A stretch of 64,000 nucleotides of DNA. Origin: a methanogenic archaeon mixed culture ISO4-G1. Its GTDB lineage: Archaea; Thermoplasmatota; Thermoplasmata; Methanomassiliicoccales; Methanomethylophilaceae. Numbering within the stretch: position 1 is the first letter of the stretch; each line of letters opens with the position of its first letter. Where the stretch lies: contig CP013703.1 of assembly GCA_001563305.1 (NCBI GenBank), positions 558,001 to 622,000 of the forward strand. The letters are read 5' to 3'. The position numbers were made by a program, and so were the translations under genes. Below the pieces are notes generated by a model. That model had not been told where the DNA came from and did no database searches. It saw only the letters and a list, made by a program, of their open reading frames with translations. This document shows positions 36,461-48,014 of this stretch, piece by piece.

Positions 36461-36470
36461 TAATTTATAT
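36461..36470 (+). promoter_or_regulatory. TATA-like box upstream of the structured RNA candidate
   Basis: TAATTTATAT is centred near 36466, so a transcript would begin near 36491-36494, exactly where the closing helix of the structured region starts. Confidence 0.45.
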
Positions 36471-36493
36471 CGAATGAGAGCAATGGAAATTAT

Positions 36494-36722
36494 AAGAGGT
36501 GTGAATAACGGCTCCGAGAGGAGCCGGATCCTTGAGGCGGATCGGACCTCGATATCTTTACCAGATATCGATGACGATCACAACCTCATCGGTCATGATC
36601 GTCAGACGGAAACCACGTTCCCGACATTCAATAAGAATGTCCAAATTCTCACCTCTTGCCGGGTTGGTTCCGTGCATGCCGTACGTAGGTTGTTCGGCAT
36701 GCACGAACTGCCCATTTCCGGC
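36494..36722 (+). ncRNA. Candidate structured non-coding RNA of two domains
   Basis: Almost every base can be placed in a helix. Domain 1 (36494-36657) is closed by a 13-position helix with one U-U mismatch (494-506 with 645-657). Inside lie hairpins of 7 bp with a GAGA tetraloop (509-526), 5 bp (527-543), 9 bp (549-571), 9 bp (572-604), 4 bp (608-621) and 7 bp (623-641). Several abut with no gap. Domain 2 (36658-36722) has GCCGG/CCGGC closing a long hairpin with a 10-bp perfect stem (672-681 with 695-704). A TATA-like box sits 25-30 nt upstream. The GNRA loop favours the plus strand. I see no RNase P or SRP signatures. A 39-codon frame on the minus strand (36558-36677) is the competing explanation. 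Confidence 0.5.
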
Positions 36723-36908
36723 GAATCTTATTCACTCGGCTTCTATGATATTAAAGTATGTTCCTACGTTTGACGGAAGGATGTAGTTTTCTTATACAGG
36801 GTCGGTCTTGTCGCTGAGATCCGAAGAAGCTCTAAGCAGATCAGTCCGGTGTCGTAATCAGAGGTTCTCGCTACAAGTCCTTATACCCGTCAGGCATATC
36901 GTTGAAGC
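36723..36908. other. Gap before the rpe operon with its promoter
   Basis: A T-rich patch TAGTTTTCTT near 36784-36793 could end the preceding transcript. A TATA-like CCTTATACC near 36879-36887 lies about 25 nt before the rpe ATG, so rpe is probably leaderless and independent of the upstream RNA candidate. Confidence 0.4.
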
Positions 36909-47908: not shown

Positions 47909-47939
47909 GTCACTATCACCTTTCTGAAAACACAATAGG

Positions 47940-48014
47940 GGCCGGGACCGAGATTTGAACCCGAGTCAAGGGATCCACAGTCCCCTAGGATAACCAAGCT
48001 ACCCTATCCCGGCC
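47940..48014 (-). tRNA. tRNA-His (GTG anticodon)
   Basis: A complete cloverleaf on the minus strand. The acceptor stem GCCGGGA/TCCCGGC is extended by the extra G(-1) at 48014 facing C73 at 47940, the hallmark of tRNA-His. The anticodon loop is CTGTGGA with anticodon GTG in a 5-bp stem (one G-U). The T-loop is TTCAAAT. No intron is present and CCA is not encoded. Confidence 0.95.

Follow-up and report, generated by a model that had tools for sequence, protein, structure and literature searches.

A structured element beside rpe in the analysed stretch of the ISO4-G1 genome (64,000 nucleotides in full, hereafter the window) belongs, as judged from alignment of its copies, to a previously undescribed RNA family of Methanomethylophilaceae-type methanogens. 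Comparison of these copies establishes a covarying fold and its strand, a Shine-Dalgarno (SD) sequence sequestered within that fold, a protein-coding frame and, beyond either end, TATA boxes in fixed positions. These features are most economically explained by a micro-protein mRNA that is kept silent by its 3' end and probably by an antisense RNA, and we put the probability that the element is an antisense-regulated micro-protein gene working like a type I toxin-antitoxin locus at about 0.45.

Location and architecture of the element

The element lies in a 534-bp spacer that runs from a 71-codon minus-strand gene (start 36374) to rpe (start 36909), the gap length given in an earlier note that had proposed a structured RNA here from the window alone. 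Every helix named in that note is found in the sequence: a 13-position closing helix (36494-36506 with 36645-36657), the enclosed stems of 7, 5, 9, 9, 4 and 7 bp and, in a second domain, an 11-bp hairpin (36671-36681 with 36695-36705). Its view that hairpins are packed far more densely than chance allows also holds, the plus strand of 36494-36722 having a minimum free energy (MFE) of -111 kcal/mol against -68 +/- 4.6 in 200 dinucleotide shuffles (z = -9.4). The minus strand is no less stably folded than the plus strand (z = -8.7 for a slightly longer stretch). On the minus strand, domain A (a GCCG...CGGC stem with a long hairpin and the internal loop AGU/AAC) leads directly into domain B, in which helix P1 closes a wheel of five to six hairpins. 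Two RNA models were used for searches, R2 for the full length (232 positions, 81 pairs) and R1 for the 3' part. R2 matches the window at 36724-36499 on the minus strand by cmsearch (185.6 bits, E 6e-62), a score for a sequence that itself belongs to the R2 seed. The features are listed here with the evidence for each; helix numbers are those of the structure of A5, an alignment of 21 sequences.

36494-36724, minus strand: whole structured RNA element of two abutting domains (R2 cmsearch, covariation, strand tests)
36658-36722, minus strand: domain A, 5' stem-loop GCCGG...CCGGC with the 11-bp hairpin 36695-36705/36671-36681 and the conserved internal loop (alignment, covariation)
36645-36657, minus strand: 5' strand of closing helix P1, with the SD AGAGGTGA (AGGAGGTGA in most copies) (covariation, start-codon spacing)
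36494-36506, minus strand: 3' strand of P1, like the anti-SD tail of 16S rRNA, pairing with the SD (6 of 7 pairs compensated in 52 copies)
36623-36641, minus strand: hairpin B, 7 bp, at the ORF start (window folding; helix 6)
36572-36604, minus strand: hairpin D, a long stem within the ORF (helix 8, compensatory change in 9 of 14 pairs)
36549-36571, minus strand: hairpin E, with the stop codon TAA (36560-36558) in its loop (helix 10)
36527-36543, minus strand: hairpin F (helix 11, 100% of cells paired; 97.2% in the 52-copy set)
36509-36526, minus strand: hairpin G (helix 12, 98% of cells paired)
36558-36644, minus strand: 28-codon micro-protein ORF with TTG start and TAA stop, MDILIECRERGFRLTIMTDEVVIVIDIW (frame conservation, start position, homologue model)
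36748-36755, minus strand: predicted sense TATA box TTTAATAT, 33 nt ahead of the first paired base (sequence and positional conservation)
36464-36471, plus strand: predicted antisense TATA box TTTATATC, from which an RNA would begin at the P1 edge (positional conservation, BRE-like stretch)

Covariation, strand and relation to known RNA families

Compensatory change is strong in two sets of copies. In A5, 87.7% of cells pair, and 44 of the 81 pairs are changed on both sides, compared with 29.8 +/- 2.9 in shuffles that, like all covariation shuffles used here, take no account of relatedness among copies. Double-changed cells number 158 in A5 (57.9 +/- 7.1 in shuffles) and at most 46 once pairing partners are slid by 1-3 columns. 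A second set, A6, comprises 52 further copies, all but one of which lie outside the R2 seed by locus. Here double changes affect 75/81 pairs (shuffle 56.9 +/- 2.8; slid at most 55) and 672 cells (shuffle 221 +/- 14; slid at most 212). Having been fitted to the model, A6 is biased in favour of the structure, a weakness from which the slid controls and A5 are free. Within A6, 83.7% of P1 cells are paired, with compensation in six of seven pairs, which points to an SD paired with the 3' end. The earlier note's proposal of a new structured RNA is borne out by these changes.

That note had taken the plus strand as the RNA strand, a choice overturned by three measures, which indicate that the selected fold is that of the minus strand. 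Consensus energy for one alignment is -132 on the minus strand versus -111 on the plus strand. The ratio of G-U to A-C combinations is 174:73 in the minus-optimised structure and 73:120 in the plus-optimised structure, so that wobble remains on the minus side even there. Of 25 copies, 19 have the lower MFE on the minus strand (Wilcoxon p = 6e-4, compared with p = 0.55 for flanking sequence), p-values that are optimistic because the copies are related. The plus strand was rejected as the RNA strand on these grounds.

None of the 4,227 Rfam models reached its gathering score on the element, the only match being to a tRNA at another place in the window. With relaxed settings, scanning the spacer returned sub-threshold noise, the best being Atu_C8 at 19.5 bits against a gathering score of 50. 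Together the strict and relaxed scans rule out RNase P, SRP and other Rfam families as the identity of the element, in agreement with the earlier statement that it resembles neither these two RNAs nor tRNA. The sole RNA gene in the window known to Rfam and ARAGORN is a tRNA-His (GTG) at 47938-48013 on the minus strand.

A conserved micro-protein frame within the fold

The 5' half of P1, read on the minus strand, is an SD (AGGAGGUGA in most copies), next to which stands a short frame that ends in the loop of hairpin E and spans 23-30 codons across the family. Substitutions in this frame are protein-like: changed codons score +0.67 by BLOSUM62, versus -0.65 and -0.56 for the remaining forward frames and no more than 0.24 for reverse frames, and the ORF frame scores best in each of three clades taken separately. 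No forward frame is prominent in either of the two structured domains that flank the ORF, where the top value (0.41) falls on the reverse strand; since these domains show no comparable signal, the coding signal is not made by structure alone. Premature stops interrupt the ORF frame in 6 of 54 copies and the other two frames in 53 and 36, in a set picked by a C-terminal peptide pattern and hence somewhat biased to the ORF frame. An in-frame ATG, GTG or TTG lies 3-13 nt behind the SD in 32/52 copies (mode 7 nt), versus 5/52 for each of the other frames. About 40% of frames have AUC, AUA, ACG, UUA or another codon at the start position and keep the downstream frame. Four close copies (L080, L081, L104 and L106) differ by ATG to ACG at the start with the frame retained, and AUC occurs in several others; these changes may reflect weak near-cognate initiation or toxin silencing. 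A plus-strand protein was rejected, reverse frames having no comparable coding signal. Conservation of a minus-strand frame as a protein had been posed in the earlier note as grounds against a structured RNA. Such conservation is found alongside the covariation, and on both lines of sequence evidence the RNA is structured and protein-coding at once.

The frame is predicted to code for a three-stranded beta micro-protein. AlphaFold2, run with 19 homologues, modelled a 30-residue member with a mean pLDDT of 94.6 and strands at residues 3-10, 13-20 and 24-29. The peptides are small, predicted to be beta-rich and often Arg-rich near the first strand; their maximum 17-residue hydropathy is 0.6-2.1, compared with 2.7 for an Ibs-type peptide. 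Searches of Pfam, NCBIfam, PADLOC and PDB sequences gave no match, and Foldseek with the peptide model returned only generic beta-meanders (best E 0.5). Some peptides start M-I-S-V-S-R..., recalling the N terminus of CsrA/RsmA, likewise a beta protein. The present peptide is, however, less than half as long, and a CsrA-like identity was rejected when profile comparison gave a probability of 0.3% and no match.

Promoter signals at both ends

TATA boxes recur at fixed distances beyond both ends of the element, from which a sense mRNA and a completely overlapping antisense RNA are predicted; transcription thus appears to proceed from both strands. A sense TATA starting -28 to -33 from GCCG occurs 27 times in 67 copies (3.9 +/- 2.0 expected). 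The antisense box stands at a fixed distance before P1 in 35/63 copies (5.6 +/- 2.2 in shuffles), is conserved at least as well as the sense TATA and is preceded by a stretch rich in purines and in A, like that of an archaeal BRE. The TATA-like box TTTATATC reported in the earlier note is real and conserved, with its centre about 27 nt ahead of the first paired base, but it would drive the antisense RNA. As a TATA box is nearly palindromic, this box could partly serve a downstream sense gene. A strong sense TATA is associated with an intact ORF (21/35 vs 8/32, Fisher p = 0.006, uncorrected for relatedness), an association that is gone at a looser threshold (p = 0.55); the antisense TATA shows none (18/35 vs 19/32).

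Distribution and genomic behaviour

Among 40 relatives searched by blastn, three same-genus genomes contain elements 70-81% identical over part of their length, some of them paired. At E <= 1, R1 detected copies in 23 of 31 genomes of the same genus, about 15 with convincing scores, as well as a second copy in the window's own genome. A search of the order yielded copies at E <= 0.01 in 48/147 genomes, nearly all of them Methanomethylophilaceae, plus one genome of a second family. With R2, 29 of 400 genomes sampled from the class carry copies, every one within the same order, and no copy was found in the sampled class genomes outside it. Records with copies include those titled Candidatus Methanomethylophilaceae, Methanomethylophilus sp. 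1R26, UBA78 and Candidatus Methanoplasma glyptotermitis. The RNA model lent no support to six exact-pattern matches in bacterial or unassigned records, and these were treated as chance. A phage, plasmid or viral origin was discarded after searches of phage, plasmid and viral collections gave no match.

Comparison of genomes reveals copies both dispersed and in tandem, as well as their decay and their gain or loss. Copies stand alone, often in tandem and often decayed, at up to about six per genome. Tandem arrays are common, with three copies on one contig in G062 and G092, and paired copies occur in G005, G009, G019, G021, G085 and G095. R2 found degenerate extra copies beside known ones (L054:3938-4162, L095:212-434, L109:912-1136, and L089:277-510 and 950-1032), and copy numbers are therefore lower bounds. 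One genome (G020) has two copies head to head (L002:1455-1683 and 1939-2172), the first with in-frame stops between SD and frame. The copies of G005 (L007:1326-1660, L005/L057 and L003) form a MITE-like unit of about 335 bp with terminal inverted repeats of about 13 bp, TGTTGACYGCAACA; a clear target duplication was not seen by eye. Such repeats exceed chance only in G005, and a transposon with terminal inverted repeats was rejected as a general feature of the family.

The divergent rpe spacer of four relatives (G018, G042, G003 and G024) is 94-120 bp long and lacks the element. The window spacer is about 414 bp longer, from which it follows that the element was gained by the window genome or lost in those relatives. 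A copy beside an aminotransferase gene is common to G000, G011, G018 and G042; deletion has cut the G018 copy to about 155 nt and removed its frame. Two relics of about 155 nt beside the aminotransferase gene (L004 and L018) keep domain A and hairpins E-G, with the inner hairpins and frame gone. Neighbouring genes vary from copy to copy, and the 21 same-genus copies with both neighbours called comprise 10 in divergent, 6 in same/same, 5 in opposite/opposite and none in convergent arrangement. This variation agrees with the earlier suggestion of an independent unit, untied to any neighbouring gene.

Comparison with type I toxin-antitoxin loci

Type I toxins include a membrane-associated class with a hydrophobic helix, and a cytosolic class too. 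In hok/sok, long-range 5'-3' pairing keeps the toxin mRNA silent. The small ORFs of type I systems have fewer than about 60 codons; the present frame has 23-30, with protein-like substitutions. Sequestration of the ribosome-binding site (RBS) is likewise indicated at the sequence level, P1 pairing the SD with the 3' end. A hydrophobic membrane helix is not predicted, the peptide having a beta-sheet model and moderate hydropathy.

ZorO is a 29-aa toxin among tandemly duplicated small proteins, with its RBS sequestered by mRNA structure and with an antisense RNA (PMC8309996). Like zorO-orzO and ibs-sib (PMC8309996, PMC3919570), the element combines an ORF of fewer than 60 codons and an RBS-hiding mRNA structure with tandem or multiple copies, decayed copies and an RNA from the opposite or neighbouring strand, here predicted. 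It differs from both in being archaeal, in hiding the SD by the mRNA 3' end within a closed wheel of about six hairpins that overlaps the ORF, in a peptide predicted to be a three-stranded sheet and not a membrane helix, and in an antisense RNA that would span the whole mRNA. With hok/sok of plasmid R1 it shares long-range 5'-3' pairing and, among the features described in PMC8309996, processing as a possible trigger and chromosomal relics; unlike hok/sok, it is found as chromosomal copies in archaea and has no overlapping mok-like leader frame, and no sequence or structural homology between the two was found. According to PMC12390103, which adds a cyanobacterial candidate, type I systems had until then been found only in Proteobacteria, Firmicutes and Tenericutes, and the loci described in PMC8309996, PMC3919570 and PMC12390103 are from bacteria, none from archaea.

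Proposed mechanism and alternatives

Multiple, tandem and decaying copies together with a putatively silenced micro-protein mRNA give the anatomy of type I toxin-antitoxin loci, and we propose the following scheme. A sense (minus) transcript of about 230 nt would begin at domain A, and its 3' end (UYACCUCC) would pair with its own SD, holding the 23-30-codon ORF silent. A convergent second promoter just past the 3' end would produce an RNA complementary to the entire mRNA. Whether the three-stranded beta micro-protein is made would then depend on antisense pairing, or on how the mRNA's 3' end is processed or refolded. Both RNAs would exist in the cell, translation would be switched, and the peptide would be harmful or growth-arresting. 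Against the toxin-antitoxin reading stand the moderate hydropathy and beta-sheet prediction, unlike a membrane-spanning toxin, and the roughly 40% of frames that have no standard start codon, although the frame behind is retained. The loss of the sense TATA-ORF association at a looser threshold and the near-palindromic TATA box also count against it. We do not claim membership in type I toxin-antitoxin systems, the antisense RNA being predicted, toxicity putative and the peptide unlike a membrane helix. More tentatively, the element may be the first such family in Archaea; its micro-toxin, a non-membrane protein of three beta strands, would be coded in the covarying hairpins of its own mRNA, whose 3' end would act as a built-in anti-SD lock.

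The main competing explanation is a structured mRNA of a useful, non-toxic micro-protein that autocontrols its translation, the beta-sheet peptide or another ligand binding the fold and opening or closing P1, with the antisense RNA secondary or absent. The ORF sits within conserved helices, so that fold and protein are selected together; conserved SD sequestration and the small, beta-rich, often Arg-rich peptide would also suit such a role. We nevertheless regard it as unlikely, if the strongest of the alternatives: many copies per genome, tandem arrays, decay and absence from the relatives' rpe spacer are unusual for a housekeeping regulator, the resemblance to CsrA proved absent on comparison, and the antisense TATA is no less conserved than the sense TATA. 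That the minus-strand RNA is purely non-coding, its open frame a by-product of hairpins, would fit the extreme structural conservation and a start codon that is not universal. It is very unlikely given substitutions that in three clades are protein-like in this frame specifically and have no comparable counterpart in the flanking domains, a start codon at SD distance in 32/52 rather than 5/52 copies, and a peptide predicted to fold with confidence. The independent plus-strand non-coding RNA of the earlier note retains a conserved TATA with a BRE-like stretch at the proper distance, and is nonetheless most improbable in view of wobble asymmetry, consensus energy and per-copy MFE.

Two further explanations concern the surroundings of the element. 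A non-autonomous mobile or tandemly amplifying cassette, in which the RNA served its own spread and any host function was secondary, would account for the extra sequence in the rpe spacer, the dispersed and tandem copies and the 13-bp inverted repeats at the ends of the G005 copies. It seems improbable to us: inverted repeats do not exceed chance outside G005, inspection of the predicted flanking ORFs without a family-library scan revealed no transposase or integrase, and the phage, plasmid and viral collections held nothing. All 21 copies with both neighbours called sit upstream of at least one gene and none lies in a convergent pair, as expected of a cis-regulatory leader of the neighbouring gene. 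Neighbours differ among copies, orientations are mixed and tandem copies exist, however, which makes a leader scarcely credible and led us to reject the leader of one fixed downstream gene.

Implications

Irrespective of its function, the element represents a new family of gut-methanogen RNAs whose covariation is unusually strong, and it encodes a conserved protein below the size that most gene finders report. In it a single sequence serves as RNA fold and coding frame simultaneously, and it provides a concrete locus for studying archaeal translation control through SD sequestration. If the toxin-antitoxin-like reading is true, RNA-controlled toxin genes would extend beyond Bacteria.
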